Positions 32,786 to 60,705 of a stretch of 64,000 nucleotides of DNA are shown here, piece after piece. Positions within the stretch are counted from its first letter, which is position 1. Each line of letters opens with the position of its first letter. The translations under genes and the position numbers were made by a program. Source of the stretch: Streptomyces sp. NBC_00162 (GTDB taxonomy: Bacteria; Actinomycetota; Actinomycetes; Streptomycetales; Streptomycetaceae); NCBI RefSeq assembly GCF_024611995.1, contig NZ_CP102509.1, positions 7,564,001 through 7,628,000 on the forward strand, given 5' to 3'. The notes under the pieces were generated by a model. It worked only from the letters and a program-made list of their open reading frames with translations, had not been told where the DNA came from and made no database searches.

Positions 32786-33235
32786 CCCGGAGAGGTCGCC
32801 GGGAGCGTTGCAGACCGTCCCGCCGGCGCTGAGCGAGGCGGTGGTGCTGAAGGCGTCGGTCGTGGTGTTGCCCAGGAAGGTGTGGTTGTGCGAGGCGCCG
32901 GGCCGGCCGGGGAAGACGAGCGGGTCGTCCGGGGCGGTGCGGCTGACCGCGCAGTTGGCCTGGAACTCGTGGAAGTAGCGGTCCGGGGGGTTCTCCCAGG
33001 ACGGAGTGACCCCTGTGACCGGAGGGACGGCCGGGATGTAGCCGTCCCCGTCCGGATCGTCTCCGGTCGCCAGGGGGGCGGCGTTGGTGTGACCCGAGTG
33101 ACCCGCGCGTACGGCGGATCCGCTGTCGGGGGAGGCCTGAGCCGTCAGCGCGAGGCCGCTGAGTCCGGCGGCCGCGGTCACGGCGAAGGCCGCCGAGACC
33201 AGGAGGGCGGACAGGGTCCGCGGTCGGAGTTTCAC
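32786..33235 (-). pseudogene. 5' part of a secreted DUF1996 protein gene, interrupted by the IS element
   Basis: GTG 33235 with GGAG upstream starts a signal peptide (MKLRPRTLSALLVSAAFAV, cleavage after AQA near residue 34). The mature part shows DUF1996 marks: FHEFQANCAVSRTAPDDPL, VFPGRPGASHNHTFLGN and a Cys before GDLSGY, where family members continue with Trp. Here the frame runs into antisense tnpA sequence for 20 residues and stops at 32726. A GAGAGCGCTCTC operator lies upstream. DUF1996 proteins are secreted and probably act on or bind polysaccharide. Confidence 0.8.
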
Positions 33236-33272
33236 TTCTGCTCCTCCGGTGGATGGGGGCTCGCCCGGTTGG

Positions 33273-33284
33273 GAGAGCGCTCTC
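33273..33284. promoter_or_regulatory. LacI-type operator upstream of the DUF1996 gene
   Basis: GAGAGCGCTCTC, identical to the 12-bp core of the palindrome in front of the GH3 gene, lies 38 bp before the DUF1996 start codon. No other copy was noticed elsewhere in the window. Confidence 0.65.
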
Positions 33285-33384
33285 TCGCTCGGCCCGGAAA
33301 ACGCGGGACGGCCGCCGGGCCGCCCCGCGTCCTCCGGGGGCCAAGGGTGGATCAGGGATGGATCAGGGGTGTGTCAGGGGTGTG

Positions 33385-35541
<2,157 letters not shown>

Positions 35542-35620
35542 GCGGGGTGCTCCTGACGTCATGGATCCGGGGGATCGAAGCGTGAGTGAACTGCCCGCCG
35601 ACTGGGCCGTCAAGGGTTCC

Positions 35621-35641
35621 GGCGTTCATGAACTGAACGCC
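35621..35641. promoter_or_regulatory. Inverted repeat upstream of the CBM32/beta-helix gene
   Basis: GGCGTTCA and TGAACGCC (8-bp perfect arms) flank TGAAC, about 80 bp before the start codon at 35541. Position and size fit an operator for the secreted protein gene. Confidence 0.45.
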
Positions 35642-35745
35642 AAATGCCATGTCAATTGCCCATCAGGCCTGTGAACTTGGAGTTTCTTCAATCCTTGTGA
35701 AAAGTGTTGACGAAAAAACTTCGCAGGGCTGTACTGATGCTCTGA

Positions 35746-35784
35746 CCGCTCCGTCCCGCCTGCCCGCTGGGCGGTACGGAGCGG
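35746..35784 (-). terminator. Hairpin downstream of the RNA-repair operon
   Basis: CCGCTCCGT at 35746-35754 pairs with ACGGAGCGG at 35776-35784, with GC-rich pairing inside. It starts 58 nt beyond the operon's TAA. Confidence 0.6.
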
Positions 35785-35841
35785 CCGGGCCCGGCTTCAG
35801 GAAGTGGCCCCGGCTCGGGGCCGGTTGCCGCCTTGTGTTCG

Positions 35842-38694
35842 TTACTCGTCGACAGTCGCGTGCGGATCCGGTACCTCGCCGCAGGCCGCCCAGGCCACTT
35901 CCACGCCGGGAAGGCCCCTCGACCACGGCGCGGCCACGGCGGCGAGACCCGCCGCGTCGGGCGGGGTCGCGCCGAGCCCGATCGCGTACCGGGCCAGGCC
36001 CGGACCCGTCGCGAAGGGGTGCGGCCAGGCGTGCGCGTCCGCGGCGCCCGCCTCCTCCAGCGCACTGAGCAGCGCCCGCAGACGGCCCCGCACCCGGCCC
36101 AGCGCCGCCTCGAACTCCCGCTCCGCGGGCGTCCGTACGGTCACCACCGCCCACGCGGCGTGCCGCCGGTGCAGCGGCGGCGCGGCCAGCACCTCGCCGA
36201 ACGACCCGGGATCCGCGTCCAGCAGCTCCCAGGCCCGGTACAGCTCCCGCCCCAGCAGATCGCGCAGTCCGGGGCCCGCCTGGGCCGTGCAGCCGCGCAC
36301 CGGCTCCGAGGGGGTCAGGACCGTCAACGCGTCCGGACACGTCACCGCAGTCGCGGGCGCCAGGCCGACCGGGTCCCGCCAGTCCCAGGCCGCCCAGGTC
36401 CCGAAGAATTCGAGCAGCAGGGCCGCCGGAGACAGGCCGGGGGCCTCGCGGACCGTGCGCGCCGCCAGTACCGCCCAGGCCAGCCCCGGCAGTCCGCCGA
36501 ACGGCGCCGAGTCCAGCCCCCGGGCTCTGGCCCAGGCCTTGACCTCCCGCGCCAGCCGGGCGAAGGCGGCATGTTCGGCCCCCACGAAACCCCGTACCGC
36601 ATCGGCGTCGCTCACCGCGCTCAGCGCGACCGCGGCCCGCTCGTCCAGCTCCGCCCGGCGCGCCACCGCCTCCGCCGGGGCCAGCGTGCCGGTGGGGACG
36701 ACCACCAGGTCCACGTCCAGTCCGGCCACGCTCAGCCGCAGCCCCGGCACCCGTGCGCCCGTCACCTCGCGCATCCGCACTGCCTCCGGCAGCGCCGCGG
36801 CGACCCGCTCCCGAACCTCCGCGATGTCCGCGGTGCCCGGCAGCGCCGCCACCAGGTCCAGGTCCGCTCCCGGCAGCGCGCAGCCCATGCGGCGGGATCC
36901 GGCCTCCCACACCACCCCGTCGCCCAGCGCGTCCGCGATCCGGGCCGTGACCGAGACGGCCCGGCCGGGCGCTGCGACGGTGTCCGGGAACGCGGGCTCC
37001 GGCAGCCACCGGACCCGTCCCGTGCCCAGTTCCACGACCGCCCGCGGCCGCATCGGCCCGTCCCCGCGCCGTGAGAGCACGGCCAGTTCCCCGACCCGCT
37101 CGGACACGCCGCCGCCGAGGCGGGCGGCGTACTGCGCGACCGCCCGCTGCGGATCCCGGCTGCGCCCCAGCGTCAGGTGCGGGGTGTAGCCCTCGACGCG
37201 CTCCCGGCATCCCGGGAACCGCTGCGCCAGCGCCTGCCGCAGCTCCTGCCACGGCGCCTCGCCGGCCGCCGCCGGATCCAGCCAGACGGTCGCGTCCTCC
37301 CGGTGCCCGAAGCTGTGCACGCCCTCCAGCCGGGCGGTGAACGCCGGTGTCCCCGCTGCCACTTCGGCCAGCAGCGGCACGGCCTCCTCGAACGAGGACT
37401 CGGGTACGAAGCCGAAGAGCAGGTTGACGTGTGCGGGCCAGCGGCCGGACTGCGGGTCGTGCTCCCGCCGCAGCGCGTGCACCGCGTCCGGGAGGCGGGA
37501 CGGCAGCCAGGCCACCGCCGTGCGCGCCGTCCCCGGCACGTCGAGCGTCGCGGGCCCGGCGCACCCGAACTCCACCGTCGCCTCCACGCCGTAGTGGTCG
37601 GAGATGAACAGCCCGTCCGGGCCCGGCGCGTCGCCGCGCAGCGCCGCCCCGGTCACCCGCGAGGCCGGCCCGGAGGCCCTGAGCAGGATCCGGTCCAGCC
37701 GCGCCGCCCGCCCCGACAGCGAGCCCACCGCGGCCAGCGGATTGGCCACCGGATCGAAGGTGGGCGTCCCGTCCGCCGCTCCGTGCACCTCGCTCCAGGC
37801 GTCCCGCATGCCCAGTGCGGCGGCCGGCCCCTCGGCCCCAGCGCTGCCGTCGTTGAAGTCGCCGAGCAGCGCCACGGAGGCTTCGACGCCGCTCAGCCCC
37901 TTGGTGAGCCGGGCCAGTTCGGCCCGTCGGCGGAGCTCCCCGTTGTCGGTGTGGTCGCTGGTCAGGTGAGTCGCGGCGACGACGAGGGGGCCGCTCGCGG
38001 TGTCCACCGTCACGGCGGTGACCGCCTTGTGCGGGCCGAGCGCGTGCAGCCCCGCCTCACGCACCGGCAGCCGGCTCAGCACCAGCAGCCCGCACTCGGC
38101 GACGTCCCGGCCGCCCGGATCCGTGCCGAGCGTGTACCCGGCCCGTACCCAGTCCGCCGCCAGCAGCATCCGGAGCAGTTCGGGTTCGGCCTCCTGGAGC
38201 GCGATGACATCGGCATCGGCGGCCGCCAGATCGGCCAGCAGCAGCGGCCTGCGCCGCGCGGTGGCGATCCGCGGGCCGTCGTAGCGGTCCCAGAGGGTGT
38301 TCCAGGTCAGCAGCCGCACCGTGGCGGGTGCCCCGGCCCCGAGGCTCCCCGGGGCAGGTGCTTGCGCCGGCCGCCAGGCGCCGCCGGCCGCCGGATCCCA
38401 CGCGTGCGGGGTCCGGGCGGTGAAGAACGGCGCCCGCAGCAGGCGCGGGTCGCGCACCCGCCCGGCCCCGGTGGCGTCGATCCGGTCCACTCCCGTGGCC
38501 CGGTCCCACACCAGCTCACCGTCCGCCTCGACGAACAGCACGCGGTGCCAGGGGATGTCGCCGCCGGGCACGAAGGACGGCAGCGGCACGCGCTTCGGGG
38601 CGGCCCCGCGCTGGAGCAGCCCGAGGACGAACCGGGCGGGATCGAAACGCGGGTCCCAGCGGACCTGGTGGTAGAGCTCCTCACTGGTGCGCAT
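35842..38694 (-). CDS. Four-domain RNA-repair protein: DUF504 - EEP - 2H phosphoesterase - poly(A)-polymerase-like NTase
   Basis: 950 residues. Residues 1-75 are a DUF504/MJ1316 domain (ELYHQVRWDPRFDP, IPWHRVLFVE), proposed to recognise RNA cyclic-phosphate ends. Residues 125-375 are an endonuclease/exonuclease/phosphatase domain with Asn132, Glu168, His243, Asp279, Asn281 and the SDH triad Asp366-His367. Residues 395-540 are a 2H (2'-5' RNA ligase-like) phosphoesterase with HVN at 422 and HLT at 506. Residues 570-900 are a nucleotidyltransferase with GSRRMG at 599, Asp611/Asp613 and probable Asp662, plus a PAP-like helical part. ATG 38694 overlaps the upstream stop as TGATG. Expected work: trimming, end healing and tailing of damaged RNA. 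Confidence 0.85.
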   Translation of the reverse strand: MRTSEELYHQVRWDPRFDPARFVLGLLQRGAAPKRVPLPSFVPGGDIPWHRVLFVEADGELVWDRATGVDRIDATGAGRVRDPRLLRAPFFTARTPHAWDPAAGGAWRPAQAPAPGSLGAGAPATVRLLTWNTLWDRYDGPRIATARRRPLLLADLAAADADVIALQEAEPELLRMLLAADWVRAGYTLGTDPGGRDVAECGLLVLSRLPVREAGLHALGPHKAVTAVTVDTASGPLVVAATHLTSDHTDNGELRRRAELARLTKGLSGVEASVALLGDFNDGSAGAEGPAAALGMRDAWSEVHGAADGTPTFDPVANPLAAVGSLSGRAARLDRILLRASGPASRVTGAALRGDAPGPDGLFISDHYGVEATVEFGCAGPATLDVPGTARTAVAWLPSRLPDAVHALRREHDPQSGRWPAHVNLLFGFVPESSFEEAVPLLAEVAAGTPAFTARLEGVHSFGHREDATVWLDPAAAGEAPWQELRQALAQRFPGCRERVEGYTPHLTLGRSRDPQRAVAQYAARLGGGVSERVGELAVLSRRGDGPMRPRAVVELGTGRVRWLPEPAFPDTVAAPGRAVSVTARIADALGDGVVWEAGSRRMGCALPGADLDLVAALPGTADIAEVRERVAAALPEAVRMREVTGARVPGLRLSVAGLDVDLVVVPTGTLAPAEAVARRAELDERAAVALSAVSDADAVRGFVGAEHAAFARLAREVKAWARARGLDSAPFGGLPGLAWAVLAARTVREAPGLSPAALLLEFFGTWAAWDWRDPVGLAPATAVTCPDALTVLTPSEPVRGCTAQAGPGLRDLLGRELYRAWELLDADPGSFGEVLAAPPLHRRHAAWAVVTVRTPAEREFEAALGRVRGRLRALLSALEEAGAADAHAWPHPFATGPGLARYAIGLGATPPDAAGLAAVAAPWSRGLPGVEVAWAACGEVPDPHATVDE

Positions 38695-40445
38695 CACAGC
38701 TCCCCGCCCGGCGCGGCCAGCGTGCCGGCCGTGTCCTCGACGCTGCCGCCCGCGCCGATGTACCAGGTCCGGTGCGCCTGACCGGGATACGGCGGGCTGA
38801 ACCGGTGCAGCTGGGCGTCCAGGACCTGCGGCGGAACCGGATGCGGGCGCACGGCATTGCGCCGCAGCAGCTCCTCCTCGCCGACGAGTACGACGGCATG
38901 GGTGACCAGTGCGTCGCGGCGGCGGGCGACCGAGCCCGCCAGCCCGCGCTGCTGGTCGGTGAGCGAGGTGGCGTCCCACAGGACCGTGCCCCCGCGGGCC
39001 AGCGCGGCGTCGAGCCGGTCGAGGCCCTCGCTCAGCACCTCCGTGTTGGCCCGCTGGTCCGCGCGCGAACCCCGGGCGGTGCGCAGGTCGTCGAGACTGA
39101 TGCAGGTGTCCACGCCGGGCAGGGCGCGGCCGAAGGTGCTCTTGCCGCTGCCCGAGGGCCCGCACAGCTGCACCAGCCGGGGAAACGTTCCCTCACGCCA
39201 TCGCCAGGTCGCCGCCACCGCCTCCTCGGCCGTGGCGATCCGGCCCTGCGCGAAGGCCCGCCGCGCCTCGGCCCAGCAGCGGTCGGCCGCGTCCGGACCG
39301 AGCGCGCCCAGCGGCTCCCGGAGCTCCGCGCGCAGGGCGCCGAGCGGGTCGGGGCCGAGCAGCCCCGCCTCCTCGGCGCACAGCGCGGACCACTCCACGC
39401 ACTCGCGGGCCTGCGCGTCCCCGGCCGTCACGGCGGCGAGCGCGTGCAGCACCCCCGGATCGGCCGCGGCGGCCATCCGGACCAGCCCCGCCCGCCGTTC
39501 CGCGTCCGGGAACGGCCGCTGGAGGTACGGGTACAGCCCGACCAGGTCCGAGACCCGCCGCGCGAGCCGCATCCCGAGCGGTCCCGCCGCGAGCCGCGCC
39601 GCGAGCCGCGCCCGCGGCGCGCGGTGCAGTACACCGGCCAGTACCGCGGCCAGCCGGTCCTCGCCGGTACGGCCCAACGCGTCGATCCGGGCGGTGACTT
39701 CGGCGAACACATCGGCCTCGGCGCCCTCGCCGGCCCACGCCGCACCCGTCACCCCGGCCGCGGTCAGCAGCTCCGCCGCATCGGCCTCGGCCCCGGAGCG
39801 GACCGCCCACAAGGGGGCCGCGGGACCGAGCCCGTTCGGCACCACCGGCGCGAACATCCAGTGCGTACCGGTCTGTACGTGTCCGCCGCGCACCCACTTG
39901 GCCACGCACCGGCCGAATTCCTCGTACGCGAAGCCGTCCACCGTCCGTACGACGTATCCCTCTTGCCGTGTGGTGTCGAGCTTCAGCTTGCGCAGCACGC
40001 GCTCGTCGAAGATGCCCCGCCACAGCACGCGCGGAGTGGGTACGCCGAGCCCCCGCAGGAACCGTACGGTCCCGTCCCAGTCCAGGCAGTGCTCCCCGTC
40101 CCACACGGAGAACCCGTAGAACCAGCTGTCGAGGTCCTCGTACGCGAGCGAGTGCCGGGCGTACAGGTTCTCCCCGCACACCCGCCGCCCGTCCGGGATG
40201 CGCGCGGCGATCCGGCCCTGGAGGCCCTTGACCCACGCCCGGGAGGGATGGTGCGCCGAGTCGAGCGAACGCGCGTGCAGGCCGTCCGCGTACAGGGTGG
40301 TGTTCTCCCCGTCGAGCTTCTCGGTCACCACGACCTCACGCCCGGCCAGCCCCGCGAACGCCCCCGGCCCGGCCACCCGGACATCGTCCGCCGCGGCCCC
40401 GGGAGACCAGGGCAGATGGGGCGTACGGGGGTAGTGCGTGCGCAT
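38694..40445 (-). CDS. RNA ligase fused to P-loop polynucleotide kinase
   Basis: 583 residues. Residues 25-200 are an ATP-dependent RNA ligase: nucleophile Lys43 in TEKLDGEN, CGENLYARHSLAYEDL, GFSVWDG, motif IV Glu162 in EGYVVR and motif V Lys183 in AKWVRGG. A helical middle follows, then a kinase of the AAA_33/T4-PNK type from residue 423: P-loop GPSGSGKST at 429-437, DDLRTARG and the GTVLWDATSLT strand. Kinase and ligase in one chain can phosphorylate a 5'-OH and seal it. AGGAG lies 6 nt before ATG 40445; the TGA overlaps the next ATG. No separate phosphatase gene, but the partner has 2H and EEP domains. Confidence 0.9.
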   Translation of the reverse strand: MRTHYPRTPHLPWSPGAAADDVRVAGPGAFAGLAGREVVVTEKLDGENTTLYADGLHARSLDSAHHPSRAWVKGLQGRIAARIPDGRRVCGENLYARHSLAYEDLDSWFYGFSVWDGEHCLDWDGTVRFLRGLGVPTPRVLWRGIFDERVLRKLKLDTTRQEGYVVRTVDGFAYEEFGRCVAKWVRGGHVQTGTHWMFAPVVPNGLGPAAPLWAVRSGAEADAAELLTAAGVTGAAWAGEGAEADVFAEVTARIDALGRTGEDRLAAVLAGVLHRAPRARLAARLAAGPLGMRLARRVSDLVGLYPYLQRPFPDAERRAGLVRMAAAADPGVLHALAAVTAGDAQARECVEWSALCAEEAGLLGPDPLGALRAELREPLGALGPDAADRCWAEARRAFAQGRIATAEEAVAATWRWREGTFPRLVQLCGPSGSGKSTFGRALPGVDTCISLDDLRTARGSRADQRANTEVLSEGLDRLDAALARGGTVLWDATSLTDQQRGLAGSVARRRDALVTHAVVLVGEEELLRRNAVRPHPVPPQVLDAQLHRFSPPYPGQAHRTWYIGAGGSVEDTAGTLAAPGGEL

Positions 40446-40554
40446 GATCCGCTCCTGCTCGACGACGTGGTGCCCCGTCACTCTAGGTATCGGGGGCGGC
40501 CACCTCCATCGATTATCAGGCGGTCCGCGCCGTGCGGCGGACCGGCCCGCCCGC

Positions 40555-41187
40555 TCAGGGGCGGCGGCCGGACCAGGCCACCAGCCGGTCGAGGGCGGAG
40601 GCGTCCGCGGCCACGGGGACCACCTCGGCGAACGGGATGCGGCCGCCGCGGGTTTCGGCCGGCAGTGCCCGGCGTACCACCTCGACCAGCCGCTCCAGCA
40701 GGTCGGTGTCCCAGTCCGGCCGCTGTCCGGTGGCGGTGGCGAGGTCCCAGGTGTGCACGATCAGTTCGTTGGTGTACACGGCCGCGGCGACCACCCCGGG
40801 CCGGACCCCCATCGGCAGGCGCAGGTCGCGGTCCAGCACGCCCGGGTCCGCCCACACCCGCGCCGCCTCACGCGCGGCCGGTTCCCAGGCGGCCGCCCAC
40901 TCACCGTCCGCGAGCTCGTCGGCGAAGGAGGGAACGCTGAAGGGGTCCTCACCGCGCCCGATCACCGAGATCCGCCGCAGCACCCCGACGAGGTGGCTCG
41001 ACAGGCGCCGGACGTCGAACTCGGCGCAGGGCGTGGGGGAGTCGTACTGTTCCGGCCGGACGGCGGCGAGGGTGCGCCCGGCGAGGGCGACGGCAGCCGC
41101 CAGATCCGGACGGGTGTCGACGGCGGCGGAGGCGGACGGGGTGGAAGGGGTGGAAGCGGTGGCGGTGAACTGCTCGGTTTCGGTCAT
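40555..41187 (-). CDS. TIGR03086-type maleylpyruvate isomerase-like (DinB fold) protein
   Basis: 210 residues of the mycothiol-dependent maleylpyruvate isomerase / TIGR03086 group: SPTPCAEFDVRRLSSHLVGV holds the first metal-ligand His of the four-helix bundle, and AAAVYTNELIVHTWDLA the HxxD pair. These DinB-like proteins bind a metal and often a low-molecular-weight thiol; exact function unknown. Divergent from a WYL regulator, a pairing seen repeatedly in actinomycetes, with an inverted repeat in the gap. Confidence 0.87.
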   Translation of the reverse strand: MTETEQFTATASTPSTPSASAAVDTRPDLAAAVALAGRTLAAVRPEQYDSPTPCAEFDVRRLSSHLVGVLRRISVIGRGEDPFSVPSFADELADGEWAAAWEPAAREAARVWADPGVLDRDLRLPMGVRPGVVAAAVYTNELIVHTWDLATATGQRPDWDTDLLERLVEVVRRALPAETRGGRIPFAEVVPVAADASALDRLVAWSGRRP

Positions 41188-41206
41188 GAGCTCATCCTGG
41201 CGGCCA

Positions 41207-41229
41207 AACTGGCCATCCTCTGGCCACTT
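41207..41229. promoter_or_regulatory. Operator-like inverted repeat, TIGR03086/WYL intergenic
   Basis: AACTGGCCA and TGGCCACTT flank TCCTC; 8 of 9 arm positions pair, with the TGGCCA core perfect. It lies 19 bp before the TIGR03086 start and 36 bp before the WYL start, so it can serve both promoters. Confidence 0.6.
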
Positions 41230-41265
41230 TCCCGGAGAGAATCCACTTCATGCGAAACGACCCTC

Positions 41266-42231
41266 ATGAAGGCTGACCGGCTGGTGGCGACCCTGCTCTT
41301 CCTCCAGGAGCGCGGGCGCGTCACCGTCCCCGAAGTGGCCGCCGAACTCGACGTCTCGGAGCGGACGGCGCGGCGCGACCTGGAGGCACTGGCCGCGGCC
41401 GGGATCCCCGTCTACTCACAGCGCGGCCGCGGCGGCGGCTGGTCCCTGGTCGGCGGCGCCCGCACCAACCTCACCGGCCTCACCGCCGACGAGATCCGCG
41501 CGCTGTTCCTCGTCGCGGGCCCCCTGGCCACCACCCCCGAACTGCGCACCGCCCTGCGCAAACTGGTCCAGGCCCTGCCGGCCACCCTCCGCGGCGGCGC
41601 CGAGGCCGCCTCGCGGGCCGCCGCCGTCGACGGCACCGACTGGTCGCGCAATCCCGTCACCGCCGACGCCCCCCACCGTGCGGCCCTCCAGCGGGCCGTG
41701 GTGGACGGCACGCGGATCCGCCTCGGATACGCGGGCGCCGGCAAACCGGCCGGGGTCCGCGAGGTCGACCCGCTCGGACTCGTGGCCAAGGCGGGGGTCG
41801 ACTACCTCGTCGCCGGTACGGAGAAGGGGCTGCGCACCTTCCGGCTCAGCCGGGTCACCTCGGTCGAGCCGACCGGCGAACCCGCCCACCGGCCGCCCGG
41901 CTTCGACCTCGCCACGGCCTGGCGGGAACTGGCCGGGGCGATGGAGGACAGGCTGTACGCGGTGACCGCCCGGGCCCGCGTCGCACCCGGCGCGGTGGCG
42001 CTGCTGGCCCGGCTCTCCGGCGGCCGGCTGCGCGTCGGCGGCCCGCTGCCCGACGGCTGGACGGAGGTCTGGGTCGACGGCCCGGCGCCCAGGGCGCTGG
42101 CCGCGCACCTGTCCGGGCTGGGAGCCCGGATCGAAGTGCTCGAACCACCGGAGGTACGGGAGTTGCTGGCCCGGCTGGGCGCCGAACTCGCGGGGCTCTA
42201 CGGACCGCCCCCGGACGAGGGCCCGGGGTGA
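41266..42231 (+). CDS. WYL-domain transcriptional regulator (YafY type)
   Basis: 321 residues, same plan as the regulator at 12165: winged helix (LLFLQERGRVTVPEVAAEL, VSERTARRDLEALAAAG), WYL domain (IRLGYAGAGKPAGVREVDPLGLVAKAGVDYLVAG) spread over its strands, and a WCX tail. The two proteins are paralogues of one family with different recognition helices, in line with their different palindromes. Probably controls the divergent TIGR03086 gene and itself. ATG 41266 begins MKADRLVATLLF, matching the family N-terminus. Confidence 0.9.
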   Translation: MKADRLVATLLFLQERGRVTVPEVAAELDVSERTARRDLEALAAAGIPVYSQRGRGGGWSLVGGARTNLTGLTADEIRALFLVAGPLATTPELRTALRKLVQALPATLRGGAEAASRAAAVDGTDWSRNPVTADAPHRAALQRAVVDGTRIRLGYAGAGKPAGVREVDPLGLVAKAGVDYLVAGTEKGLRTFRLSRVTSVEPTGEPAHRPPGFDLATAWRELAGAMEDRLYAVTARARVAPGAVALLARLSGGRLRVGGPLPDGWTEVWVDGPAPRALAAHLSGLGARIEVLEPPEVRELLARLGAELAGLYGPPPDEGPG

Positions 42232-42254
42232 CAGGCCGGCCAGGGGGCCGGGGC

Positions 42255-43742
42255 TCAGCCGCCGGCCGGTACCGCCGCGGCCAGCCCGCCGCCCGCCGCG
42301 AAGTGCAGCCGGTCCAGCCGGGCCGCGTACGGCCAGCCCGCCGCCCGGTAGAAGCACAGGTCGCTCGGGATCGGTACCGCCCGCAGGTCGGCGGCGTGCG
42401 TGCCGGCCGGCAGTCCGGCGGCCGCCGCGAGCAGCGGGTCCGCAGATCCCGCCCACTCGCCGACCGGGGCGGGCCGCGGCCACGGCTCCCCGGTGTTGGG
42501 GAACAGCCACCGGGTGTCCCCGGTGACCCGGCCGGCGAAGTCCGGGCCGTCCACGGCCTGCCGGGCCAGCCGGGCGAAGGTCAGCAGCAGGTCCGGCAGG
42601 GATTCGGCGAGCAGGGCCAGCTCCGGGTACTCCCGCAGCGCCTTCGCCTCGGCGGGCACCGAGACGGCGTACCCCCACCGGCCGGTCTCCGGGTCGACGC
42701 GGATCTGCAGGAGCGCGGGACTGTGCCCGTAGCCGATCCGGGCCAGCGGCCAGTACGTGCCCTCGCCGCCCATCATGTAGTGGACCTCCGGGGCCACCTC
42801 GTGCTCCGGGGCCCCGGGCAGCAGCCGCAGCGCGGGCAGTCCCGCGATCGCCACCGCGCCGATCTCCCGCAGCACGGACCGGATCTCGGCGGGCACCGGG
42901 ACCGGCCAGCCGTCCATGGTGCGGTCGTCGACACCCGCGTCGAGGACGACGAAGGAGGGGAACTCGGCGGCCAGAGCCCGTAGTCCGGCGACCGCGCGGT
43001 CCGCGGCATCCGCCGGCAAGTGGTGCCTGCGTACCGGCCGTCCGAGGAAGTCCCCGCTCACCACACTGCGCAGCAGCAGCGCCCGGCCGTCCCCCACGAT
43101 CCGGAACTGGACCTCGCTGCTTCCGGTGTCGGCGGTGTTGTGGGAGGTGGAGAAGTACGGTTCCCAGCCCACCGCGCACGGGTAGCCGGGCAGGTCGCGC
43201 AGGTCGACGAGATCGGTGAGCGAGTCTCCGCGGCCGACGAGCGCACCGAGTCCGGTGTCCGTCCCCTCGGCCACCTCGACGGTCGGGACGGCCGGCACGA
43301 AGTGCTTCGCGGCTGCCCTGTCCGCCACCCCGTCGGCAAGCCGCTCCGTGAACCCGGCGAGCCAGCCGACGAACTCCGGGGCCTCGACCGTGACGTCCGG
43401 GTCGTCCCCCCACGGACGCACGGCCACGACCGGCCCCCAGCCGCAGGAGCCGACGCCGACGATCAACGAGCCCTCGCCGAAGTCCAGTTCGCCGAGGGTC
43501 CAGTAGCCGTCCGCGAACACCGCGCGGCCGCGCGGCCCGAAGCGGTACTCGTGCTCCTCGGTCTCCAGCCCGCCGATCTGCCGCAGCACCACCCGGACGT
43601 CCTCCGGGACCGGGACTGCCCAGTCGTCCAACTCCGCGTCCGTGAACCCGTCGAACAGCTCGACCTCGTCCGCCCGTACCCGCGCCAGCTCCCGCAGCGC
43701 ACGGACGACGGCCGCGGCCGCCTCCGGTCCCGCGTCGTTCAT
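42255..43742 (-). CDS. Protein with two SUKH (SMI1/KNR4)-like repeats
   Basis: 495 residues with internal duplication. The repeat signature is DDWAVPVPEDVRVVLRQIGG at residues 40-58 and DGWPVPVPAEIRSVLREIG at 277-295, each preceded by an acidic strand and followed by a tryptophan-containing strand (YWTLGELDFGEGSL; YWPLARIGYGHSPAL). This matches the SMI1/KNR4 (SUKH) core, used in many bacteria for immunity proteins against secreted toxins. No toxin gene is adjacent. Cytoplasmic, no signal. Function by analogy only. Confidence 0.75.
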   Translation of the reverse strand: MNDAGPEAAAAVVRALRELARVRADEVELFDGFTDAELDDWAVPVPEDVRVVLRQIGGLETEEHEYRFGPRGRAVFADGYWTLGELDFGEGSLIVGVGSCGWGPVVAVRPWGDDPDVTVEAPEFVGWLAGFTERLADGVADRAAAKHFVPAVPTVEVAEGTDTGLGALVGRGDSLTDLVDLRDLPGYPCAVGWEPYFSTSHNTADTGSSEVQFRIVGDGRALLLRSVVSGDFLGRPVRRHHLPADAADRAVAGLRALAAEFPSFVVLDAGVDDRTMDGWPVPVPAEIRSVLREIGAVAIAGLPALRLLPGAPEHEVAPEVHYMMGGEGTYWPLARIGYGHSPALLQIRVDPETGRWGYAVSVPAEAKALREYPELALLAESLPDLLLTFARLARQAVDGPDFAGRVTGDTRWLFPNTGEPWPRPAPVGEWAGSADPLLAAAAGLPAGTHAADLRAVPIPSDLCFYRAAGWPYAARLDRLHFAAGGGLAAAVPAGG

Positions 43743-48332: not shown

Positions 48333-48884
48333 ATGGGTGCCATGGGGAGAGGGAAGAAGAGTCCGCACGTCCGCGAAGGCGCCACGCCGCCCGAGCACTG
48401 GCGCTACGAACGCCACCTGGAGTCGCTGGCCGTGGCGCCGGGGGAGTCCGCCGAGGCCGAGGCCGTGGCCGCCGTGCTGCGCGACCCCGACCCGGTGATG
48501 GCCGAGAGCGCGGTGGTCACCCACCTGAACCGCCGGGCGGCACGGCTGCTGTCCGACGAGGGCTTCCCCGTCTGGGCCCAGGCCATGACCGCGGCGCTCG
48601 CCGGACGTGCCTTCCCCGAGCGGCGGCTGCGCGAGTGGACCCTGCTCAAAGCCATCACCCACGGCGAACCCTGGTCGGCGGCGGAGCTCACCGCCGCCTC
48701 CGACTGGTGCCAGCGCACCGCCGCCCAGTCTCTGACCTCGTACGAGGCCCTGAGCCTGCTGGCCGACGCCGCCCGCACCCGCCGGGTCCGCAACGCCGCC
48801 GCCGAACGGCTGCGCCGGCGGGCCGCCGGGAACGGCCCCGCGCCGGGGCCCGTACTGACGCGAGGCGGGTATACCCGGACGTAA
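48333..48884 (+). CDS. Hypothetical all-helical protein
   Basis: 183 residues, rich in Ala, Arg and Glu, with repeated helix pairs (VAAVLRDPDPVMAESAVVTH, LLADAARTRRVRNAAAE) reminiscent of HEAT-like repeats; no family is recognised. A full AAGGAGGT ribosome site at 48317-48324 lies 8 nt before ATG 48333, so the gene is well expressed on paper. Soluble, no signal. Confidence 0.7.
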   Translation: MGAMGRGKKSPHVREGATPPEHWRYERHLESLAVAPGESAEAEAVAAVLRDPDPVMAESAVVTHLNRRAARLLSDEGFPVWAQAMTAALAGRAFPERRLREWTLLKAITHGEPWSAAELTAASDWCQRTAAQSLTSYEALSLLADAARTRRVRNAAAERLRRRAAGNGPAPGPVLTRGGYTRT

Positions 48885-59457: not shown

Positions 59458-60705
59458 GTGGCCGTGACGGCAGTGAGTACGGCCCAGGCGGTCGAAGCGG
59501 TGTTCAGGATCGAGTCGGCGCGGATCATCGCCGGCGTCGCCCGTATCGTCCGGGACGTCGGCATCGCCGAGGAACTCGCCCAGGACGCCCTGGTCGCCGC
59601 GCTTGAACAGTGGCCCGAGTCCGGCGTCCCGGACCGGCCGGGCGCCTGGCTCATGGCCACCGCCAAACACCGCGCGATCGACCTCGTCCGCCGCAAGGAG
59701 ACCTACGCGCGCAAGCTCGCGGAGGTCGGCCGGACCCTGGAGGACGTACCGCCGCCCGCCGGACCGGCCGAGCTCGCGGACCCTGAGCACATCGACGACG
59801 ACCTGCTACGGCTGATCTTCACCGCCTGCCACCCGCTCCTGGCGACCGAGGCCCGGATCGCGCTCACCCTGCGGCTGATGGGCGGCCTGACCACCCAGGA
59901 GATCGCCCGCGCCTTCCTCGCGTCCGAGTCCGCCGTCGCCCAGCGCATCGTCCGGGCGAAACGGACCCTGGCCACGGCGGGGGTGCCCTTCGAAGTCCCG
60001 TACGGGGCCGACCGCGAGGCACGGCTCGCATCGGTCCTCGAGGTCATCTACCTCGTCTTCAACGAGGGCTACTCGGCCACCGCGGGCGAGGACCTGGTCC
60101 GCCCCGCCCTGTGCGAGGACGCGCTGCGGCTGGTCCGCGTCCTGGCGGGCCTGATGCCCAAGGAGCCCGAAGTGCACGGCCTCGCCGCGCTGCTGGAGTT
60201 CCAGGCGTCCCGGATGGCCACCCGGACCGGACCCGACGGGGAACCGGTCCTGCTCGCCGACCAGAACCGGGCCCGGTGGAACCGCATGCTCATCCACCGG
60301 GGCATCGAGGCCATGCGGCACGCGGGCAGCGGCCCCTACTCGGTACAGGCCGCCATCGCCGGCTGCCACGCGGCGGCCGTCCGCTACGAGGACACCGACT
60401 GGCCGACGATCGCCGCCCTGTACGGGCGGCTGGTCACACTGATCCCGTCCCCGGTGGTGGAGCTCAACCGGGCGGTCGCCGTCTCGATGGCGCAGGGACC
60501 GGAGGCCGCGCTCCCGCTGGTCGACGCGCTGGCGCAGGAACCGGCCCTGCGCGCCTACCACCTGCTGCCGAGCGTACGGGGAGACCTGCTGGAGCGGCTC
60601 GGCCGCCCGGCGGAGGCCCGCGCCGAGTTCGAACGGGCGGCCTCGCTCACCCGCAACGAGCGGGAACGCTCCCTGCTCCGCGGGCGCGCCGACCGGCTCC
60701 AGTGA
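59458..60705 (+). CDS. ECF42 RNA polymerase sigma factor
   Basis: 415 residues. Sigma-70 region 2 (IVRDVGIAEELAQDALVAAL, AWLMATAKHRAIDLVRR) and region 4 (LMGGLTTQEIARAFLASESA) occupy the first 185 residues; the remaining 230 are the long C-terminal extension (FNEGYSATAGEDLVRPALCE, NRAVAVSMAQGPEAAL, TPR-like helices) characteristic of ECF42 and needed for its activity. No anti-sigma factor is present, as expected. GTG 59458 or GTG 59464 may start it. Partner: DGPF gene upstream. Confidence 0.93.
   Translation: MAVTAVSTAQAVEAVFRIESARIIAGVARIVRDVGIAEELAQDALVAALEQWPESGVPDRPGAWLMATAKHRAIDLVRRKETYARKLAEVGRTLEDVPPPAGPAELADPEHIDDDLLRLIFTACHPLLATEARIALTLRLMGGLTTQEIARAFLASESAVAQRIVRAKRTLATAGVPFEVPYGADREARLASVLEVIYLVFNEGYSATAGEDLVRPALCEDALRLVRVLAGLMPKEPEVHGLAALLEFQASRMATRTGPDGEPVLLADQNRARWNRMLIHRGIEAMRHAGSGPYSVQAAIAGCHAAAVRYEDTDWPTIAALYGRLVTLIPSPVVELNRAVAVSMAQGPEAALPLVDALAQEPALRAYHLLPSVRGDLLERLGRPAEARAEFERAASLTRNERERSLLRGRADRLQ

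Follow-up and report, generated by a model that had tools for sequence, protein, structure and literature searches.

A two-gene Streptomyces operon with a candidate role in RNA repair

A 64,000-nucleotide stretch of Streptomyces sp. NBC_00162 (contig NZ_CP102509.1, positions 7,564,001 to 7,628,000), hereafter the window, carries two coupled genes on its minus strand at 35842-40445. Gene 1 encodes an RNA ligase fused to a kinase. Gene 2 encodes a protein with MJ1316, EEP, 2H phosphoesterase, and poly(A) polymerase domains. On balance, we favor an RNA repair module as the interpretation of this gene pair, serving 5' phosphorylation, 3' healing and extension, and sealing. The domain set of both genes, with intact active sites, is supported by the sequences and by a structure model. 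The initial annotation, made from the DNA letters, had proposed an RNA repair operon; this is still the best available reading, and the role of the EEP domain, the make-up of gene 1, and the necessity of the 2H domain are revised here.

In the proposed pathway, a ribonuclease would leave a 2',3'-cyclic phosphate and a 5'-OH. The MJ1316 domain would hold the cyclic end, the 2H domain would open the cyclic phosphate to a 2'-phosphate, and the EEP domain would remove the remaining phosphate to give a 3'-OH/2'-OH end. The poly(A) polymerase may add nucleotides to the healed 3' end. The kinase of gene 1 would make the 5'-phosphate, and its ligase would seal. We infer the order of these steps, as well as the chemistry of the EEP domain, which nucleotide is added, what RNA is targeted, and what triggers the pathway. 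That gene 2 readies ends for gene 1 is argued most strongly by one pair of findings: gene 1 has lost the HD phosphoesterase site, and it is linked to a predicted 3'-healing protein.

RNA repair of this general kind is already known and predicted. Burroughs and Aravind reportedly predicted such systems in 2016, with sets of MJ1316, 2H, EEP, ligase, kinase, and nucleotidyltransferase domains. Some relatives are already named 'RNA repair domain-containing protein' or 'poly(A) polymerase' in databases. A literature search of titles and abstract openings, which lay outside the 2016 text of Burroughs and Aravind, gave no paper on the fusion among the matches listed. Within the searchable literature, the link to the DRB operon of Deinococcus radiodurans, the degenerate HD domain, the TDP2-like EEP domain, and the cyanobacterial three-gene form are new. 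If the proposed interpretation is true, bacteria own a two-protein pathway that heals, extends, and reseals RNA from both sides of a cut. The analysis ties a frequent Streptomyces operon to Deinococcus DRB0100 and DRB0098, whose substrate and role are disputed in the reports consulted (PMC1997131, PMC1978522, PMC3893189, PMC5128194), and suggests a substrate that has yet to be tried with them, healed or extended RNA ends. A further outcome is that proteins from several bacterial phyla contain a complete eukaryotic-type poly(A) polymerase.

Domain composition of the two proteins

The gene boundaries are exactly those of the initial annotation, and the TGATG coupling was borne out (Table 1). The genes are not chance open frames, because 1455 database clusters matched gene 1 and 1290 matched gene 2 (8000 candidates were scored for each, and the best 120 of each were listed). 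The genome containing the window is 9.02 Mb in size and has a single MJ1316 gene. Profile searches by segment, a test set beforehand, recovered every domain; the Pfam E-values given are for matches above each profile's own cut-off. Residue conservation was counted in 50 gene-1 rows, window included, and in 84 gene-2 rows, 45 of them outside Actinomycetota. The gene-2 rows had to have 800 or more residues in one open frame, a choice that excluded degenerate copies beforehand; copies that are frame-split or rearranged do exist (L077, L040/G489, and G407). The checked catalytic residues were invariant or nearly so, and the earlier claim of intact active sites extends to the aligned homologs, with gene 2 preselected as described. 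Neither of the two outcomes named beforehand as refuting the initial reading (missing domains, or catalytic residues lost in most homologs) was obtained.

The ligase of gene 1 is, by family, an Rnl-type ATP-dependent RNA ligase. Lys43, Glu162, and Lys183, which had been named as its active-site residues, were identical in 50 of 50 rows, as was Glu92, and the Rnl-type nucleotidyltransferase motifs (the KxDG lysine and the glutamate and lysine of motifs IV/V) were found. The structure model of the ligase is poor, with low confidence for residues 1-21, 58-69, 95-107, and 187-206. Over query residues 1-206, the ligase shares 57.5% identity with D. radiodurans DR_RS15960. We read DR_RS15960 as DRB0100 on three grounds: a match of its first residues to the cloning primer, a catalytic lysine at residue 40, and agreement in gene order. 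Separately, jumbo phages carry ligases resembling the gene-1 ligase domain (33-56% identity in those aligned over most of the domain); the relative in Xanthomonas phage XacN1 (L116) is annotated as a 2'-5' RNA ligase.

The remainder of gene 1, residues 197-578, aligns with residues 1-413 of DRB0098, an HD-Pnk, over the whole length of the latter (hhalign probability 100, E 3e-42), with the weakest match in the HD region. DRB0098 His81 corresponds to position 274 of gene 1, which is H in 47 of 50 rows. DRB0098 Asp82 corresponds to position 275, which is R in 23 rows and G in 19; no D occurs among the five commonest letters at this position, which account for 48 of the 50 rows. The HD dyad of the HD-Pnk phosphoesterase was not found in gene 1, and the protein is not classed as a working HD-Pnk. 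Because this part matches all of DRB0098 but carries R or G in place of the HD aspartate in 42 of 50 rows, gene 1 is, as judged from the alignments, a fusion of a DRB0100-type ligase and a DRB0098-type HD-Pnk whose HD aspartate is lost. The initial annotation had described a ligase joined to a kinase; both are there, and the middle also holds the degenerate HD domain. The kinase was matched by AAA_33 (5.4e-20), its fold was confirmed by fold comparison, and it has the P-loop, catalytic aspartate, and acceptor-site arginine of Pnkp-type 5' kinases. The HD aspartate, retained by the HD-Pnk relatives, is missing from gene 1, and the task of 3' healing has therefore probably passed to gene 2.

The AlphaFold2 model of gene 2 has a mean predicted local distance difference test score (pLDDT) of 91.4. 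In the MJ1316 domain, Trp13, Asp14, Pro48, His50, Arg51, Trp63, and Arg65 were kept in 84 of 84 rows. Two papers that cite Burroughs and Aravind 2016 credit that work with RNA repair and with the recognition of cyclic ends by MJ1316 (PMC6514570, PMC7824862). Binding of such ends by gene 2 is putative, from the Pfam family name and the statement of a citing paper (PMC6514570). All eight EEP active-site residues (the Asn, Glu, Asp-x-Asn, Asp, and Asp-His pattern) were kept in 84 of 84 rows, and Exo_endo_phos matched at 8.3e-15. His422 and His506 of the 2H domain were likewise invariant; the first motif is HxN in the window (third letter N in 60, T in 23, and S in 1 of 84) and the second is HxT (third letter S in 46 and T in 36 of 84). 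The poly(A) polymerase has the GS...DxD...D motif and the central and C-terminal domains of the eukaryotic type, and its catalytic triad was kept in 84, 83, and 82 of the 84 rows. PAP_central matched at 2.1e-10, and PAP_NTPase fell under its cut-off in the window protein and over it in the Calothrix relative. Both profile and fold confirmed the polymerase and EEP assignments. The polymerase may add A to RNA 3' ends.

Table 1. Coordinates of the operon and its features in the window.
Feature	Position	Strand	Description
Gene 1	38694..40445	-	583 aa; RNA ligase fused to HD-Pnk-like part (degenerate HD and polynucleotide kinase)
Ligase nucleotidyltransferase domain, residues 36-185	39891..40340	-	PF09414 (RNA_ligase) 3.7e-32; Lys43 in KLDGEN, Glu92, Glu162, Lys183
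Helical middle region, about residues 197-410	39216..39857	-	Homologous to HD part of DRB0098; HD aspartate replaced
Polynucleotide 5'-kinase domain, residues 424-552	38790..39176	-	P-loop GPSGSGKS 429-436, Asp452, Arg455, Arg533
TGATG stop-start overlap coupling gene 1 and gene 2	38692..38696	-	Stop TGA 38696-38694, start ATG 38694-38692
Gene 2	35842..38694	-	950 aa; MJ1316 - EEP - 2H - poly(A) polymerase
MJ1316 (DUF504) domain, residues 1-65	38500..38694	-	PF04457 9.6e-18, 65.1 bits against a cut-off of 26.3
EEP domain, residues 129-367, TDP2-like	37594..38310	-	Asn132, Glu168, His243, Asp279, Asn281, Asp334, Asp366, His367
2H phosphoesterase domain, residues 398-545	37060..37503	-	PF13563 (2_5_RNA_ligase2) 2.2e-33; His422, His506
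Complete eukaryotic-type poly(A) polymerase, residues 570-947	35854..36987	-	Catalytic, central, and C-terminal parts; Gly599-Ser600, Asp611, Asp613, Asp662
Promoter-like element TACCTAGAGTGA upstream of gene 1	40478..40489	-	Conserved in an alignment of 17 upstream regions

Linkage of gene 1 with gene 2 and related operons

Streptomyces gave 83 MJ1316 matches. Of these, 81 fell in 80 stretches that were analyzed, one is in the window, and one lies on a 3.8 kb contig. Adding the window to the 80 stretches makes 81 loci, and the long form of gene 2 (four-domain or lacking 2H) is present in 53 of them. The ligase-kinase gene lies directly upstream of gene 2 in 49 of these 53. Of the remaining four loci, L039 stops at a contig end, L054 was positive by tblastn, L100 has the kinase part only, and L107 is without the gene. 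The ligase-kinase was found in 40 of 199 Streptomyces genomes, 39 of which also have an MJ1316 gene: 37 in the long form, one cut by a contig end (G475), and one, on the 3.8 kb contig, read for MJ1316 only (G533). The fortieth, G444, is an 82% complete assembly. At a limit of 1e-30, no ligase-kinase was found in the long-form genome G476, nor in any of the 15 genomes with only short or odd MJ1316 forms, which presumably belong to the 199-genome sample.

A three-gene operon in Cyanobacteriota (e.g., L131 and L133) encodes the same partner activities as a ligase, an HD-Pnk, and an MJ1316-EEP-2H-PAP protein. Of 21 cyanobacterial loci, 8 have an HD-Pnk gene ahead of the four-domain gene, and in 6 a ligase gene in turn precedes HD-Pnk. 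Unlike in Streptomyces, ligase and HD-Pnk are separate genes, and the ligase motif is EKVDGAN rather than KLDGEN; this ligase escaped tblastn with the gene-1 ligase. The HD motif is intact in L131, where HD scored just above the Pfam cut-off. Another cyanobacterial locus, L165, has HD-Pnk followed by MJ1316 and PAP; neither EEP nor 2H was matched there, and the locus may be a reduced form.

The DRB0100-DRB0099-DRB0098 operon of D. radiodurans encodes a ligase, a PARG-like macrodomain, and an HD-Pnk. It resembles gene 1 in the ligase and the Pnk part, as described above. In contrast to it, ligase and Pnk are fused in Streptomyces and the HD aspartate is lost; the two-gene unit is without the macrodomain and has the four-domain gene 2 added. 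Bacterial-type PARGs are reported to remove ADP-ribose from the 5' ends of RNA and DNA (PMC11833690). Compared with the Clostridium Pnkp/Hen1 RNA repair system, neither Streptomyces protein has a metallophosphoesterase or methyltransferase domain by Pfam.

Points against RNA repair and alternative readings

Several observations weigh against the proposed RNA repair module, and they are considered here with the alternatives that they bear on. The first concerns the EEP domain, which resembles TDP2 far more than ANGEL2 (profile E-values 9.7e-22 and 0.0036, the latter for ANGEL2 6rvz over profile columns 18-51 only). Among the solved EEP structures listed, TDP2 is nearest in both sequence and fold. 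TDP2 is a phosphodiesterase, and the EEP domain is closer to it than to a trimming nuclease as proposed in the initial annotation. Kinship with ANGEL2 was rejected on the same E-values, with an ANGEL2-type activity still possible. As a precedent for the proposed module, ANGEL2 is described as an EEP enzyme that clears 3'-terminal phosphates ahead of polyadenylation, so that together with the mitochondrial poly(A) polymerase it likewise sets an EEP-fold phosphatase before a polymerase (PMC9525292); however, these are separate proteins, and the Streptomyces EEP domain is closer to TDP2. If the EEP domain keeps TDP2 chemistry, it would strip a 5'-joined tyrosine-linked protein or a stranded adenylate to give the ligase a 5'-phosphate, with 2H and MJ1316 handling the 3' end. 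We regard this reading as unlikely, although the TDP2 resemblance speaks for it. Sphingomyelinases and Nocturnin match the fold at Z only somewhat below TDP2; therefore, the nearest fold does not settle the substrate. We know of no protein-RNA adduct of the 5'-linked kind in these bacteria, no search for one having been made.

Other observations speak against a strict partnership of the two genes. By tblastn at 1e-4, no ligase or kinase was detected adjoining gene 2 in the Myxococcota loci, and 13 of 21 cyanobacterial loci, some on short contigs, show no HD-Pnk beside it. Five of seven genomes of other phyla gave no gene-1 match at 1e-6; these zeros are not proof, because the same search missed the HD-Pnk known in L126. 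A Cytophagales metagenome-assembled genome (MAG) gave a ligase-type match to gene 1 (39%, 6.2e-20), and Paraliomyxa gave a weak kinase match. The Myxococcota loci would fit a role without sealing, in which gene 2 heals the 3' end, its polymerase tails the RNA for degradation, and gene 1 reseals only breaks whose ends stay together. Poly(A) tails promote RNA decay in bacteria, and the protein that carries the healing domains also includes a full eukaryotic-type poly(A) polymerase whose active site is intact. Against such a repair-or-discard switch, the ligase-kinase accompanies the long gene 2 almost perfectly in Streptomyces, and we give the switch only a minor share of belief.

Nine Streptomyces gene-2 proteins lack 2H and keep all other domains. 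The window protein has the 2H domain named in the initial annotation, but a gene-2 protein need not contain one, and the idea of an indispensable 2H is weakened. In a quick tree, the 2H-less proteins form one clade (Shimodaira-Hasegawa-like approximate likelihood ratio test support 93, just below the mark of 95), so that 2H was probably lost once in Streptomyces. PF13563 proteins encoded outside gene 2 were found in every one of 16 genomes searched, including 9 that carry the 2H-less form, so 2H activity could be supplied in trans.

The Deinococcus reports, finally, offer arguments for both sides. The DRB0098-0100 operon is reported to be induced by ionizing radiation (PMC1997131, PMC1978522), and DRB0098 to have 5'-kinase activity (PMC1997131). 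DRB0100 alone was adenylated, yet according to this report it ligated neither DNA nor RNA (PMC1997131). PprA is reported to restore DNA end joining by DRB0100 (PMC3893189), and a review states that DRB0100 is ligase-active only with DRB0098 and PprA (PMC5128194). The fusion in gene 1 fits this reported need for DRB0098, but the ligase activity was reported on DNA. The reports on loss of DRB0100 conflict: one disruption left radiation resistance unchanged (PMC1978522), and a loss of DNA damage tolerance is cited by the review (PMC5128194). The radiation induction and the reported joining activities are the case for repair of DNA ends, or of both DNA and RNA, as proposed for DRB0098-0100, and TDP2, the nearest relative of the EEP domain, acts on DNA according to structure titles. 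On the other hand, the families of the MJ1316, 2H, and PAP-type domains are RNA families, and the failure of DRB0100 alone to ligate and the unchanged radiation resistance weigh against DNA repair as well. We consider this reading improbable, the least credited of those weighed here.

A wider form of RNA break repair joins these threads: an end-healer with a full eukaryotic-type poly(A) polymerase and a TDP2-like 5' cleaner would mend both ends, extend the 3' end without a template, and hand the RNA to a ligase-kinase whose 3' healing domain has decayed. We hold it to be doubtful, slightly more so than the TDP2-chemistry and switch readings. If it were true, DRB0098-0100, now seen as DNA repair, would be recast wholly or partly as RNA repair.

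Distribution and genomic setting

MJ1316 was found in 81 of 295 sampled Streptomyces genomes and in 3 of 396 sampled Actinomycetota genomes, all three Streptomyces; relatives also occur in Embleya, Kitasatospora, Nonomuraea, and Planomonospora. MJ1316 was found in 63 of 193 Myxococcota genomes, all 63 sized 8.4-13.8 Mb, although in some the open frames at the site were all short. Among 194 Cyanobacteriota genomes it was found in 2, one being the chosen center of the sample. Scanning 84,980 species with a pattern led by the Calothrix protein yielded 341 relatives, and 79 loci were kept. By record title, these belong to Cyanobacteriota, Myxococcota and further 'Deltaproteobacteria', Acidobacteriota, a Cytophagales MAG, a 'Proteobacteria' MAG, and Actinomycetota. 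The four-domain protein was found in Cyanobacteriota, Myxococcota, Acidobacteriota, and one Bacteroidota MAG. A phage origin of gene 2 was rejected: 50,697 phage records gave no match, and a pattern scan gave none in viral contigs.

The 81 Streptomyces loci hold 44 full four-domain proteins (window included), the 9 without 2H, and 25 copies, one sharing its locus with a full protein, of a short MJ1316-2H protein of about 290 aa, e.g., L106:9016-9897 (+) and L037:8332-9204 (-). The other four loci are L077 (full type split over two frames), L095 (MJ1316-EEP), L105 (contig end), and L109 (no BLAST match). In the short-form stretches, no ligase-kinase was found except in L043, which also has the full operon.

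Genes of the rpsJ-operon, tuf, or fusA type were present at 23 of the 53 long-form loci, at 6 with the short form, and at 1 that stops at a contig end; two of these assignments, L078 and L098, are doubtful, one with a single EF-G-like gene only and the other with a 60-residue S10 piece. In system-negative genomes (20 stretches of 25 genomes), the same interval is occupied by other, varied genes; its length ranged from 3.1 to 14.4 kb in the 15 stretches (of 20) that extended as far as tuf. In Streptomyces, the tuf-rpsJ interval is therefore a variable-gene hotspot, and a functional ribosome link from this placement was rejected. Placement is inherited in clades: in the quick tree, location and 2H labels together need 6 changes, versus 22.8 when shuffled.

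Clustering of the genes within nine genes of the 53 long-form loci, judged by eye, gave no evident toxin or regulator among recurring neighbors, and a dedicated neighbor of either kind was rejected. A member of the family of the upstream MDMPI_N gene of the window stands at that place in 5 of 53 loci, and the downstream gene recurs in 11 of 53. PADLOC, run on 6 proteins, gave no credible defense match; gene 2 had none, and gene 1 had only a 28-residue P-loop match at 0.0067. An RNA family search of window positions 33000-43500 gave no match at E up to 0.1.

The promoter-like element upstream of gene 1 belongs to a block (TGG ... T[AC]CCTA[GC]AGTGA, about 45 bases before gene 1) consisting of the element plus about 30 bases upstream. 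The block is kept in one clade although the sequence farther upstream diverges, and a related motif occurs in 20 of 51 upstream regions. The exact 12-base pattern has a single occurrence in the genome, so at exact-pattern stringency it points to no shared regulon.

ARAGORN placed tRNA-Gly(ccc) at 48784-48864 (-) and tRNA-Arg(gcg) at 60612-60686 (-) of the window, both inside opposite-strand predicted genes and likely false. On a Calothrix conjugative plasmid, a nearby opposite-strand gene, L113:11531-14290 (-), encodes a 919-aa protein that, judged by eye, resembles a dynamin-type GTPase. In Myxococcus and relatives, two adjacent RlaP-family nucleotidyltransferases (PF10127), as at L145:13731-15880 (-), lie a few genes from the four-domain gene on the opposite strand; the gene families recur in 6 loci, with the Pfam assignment taken from one.

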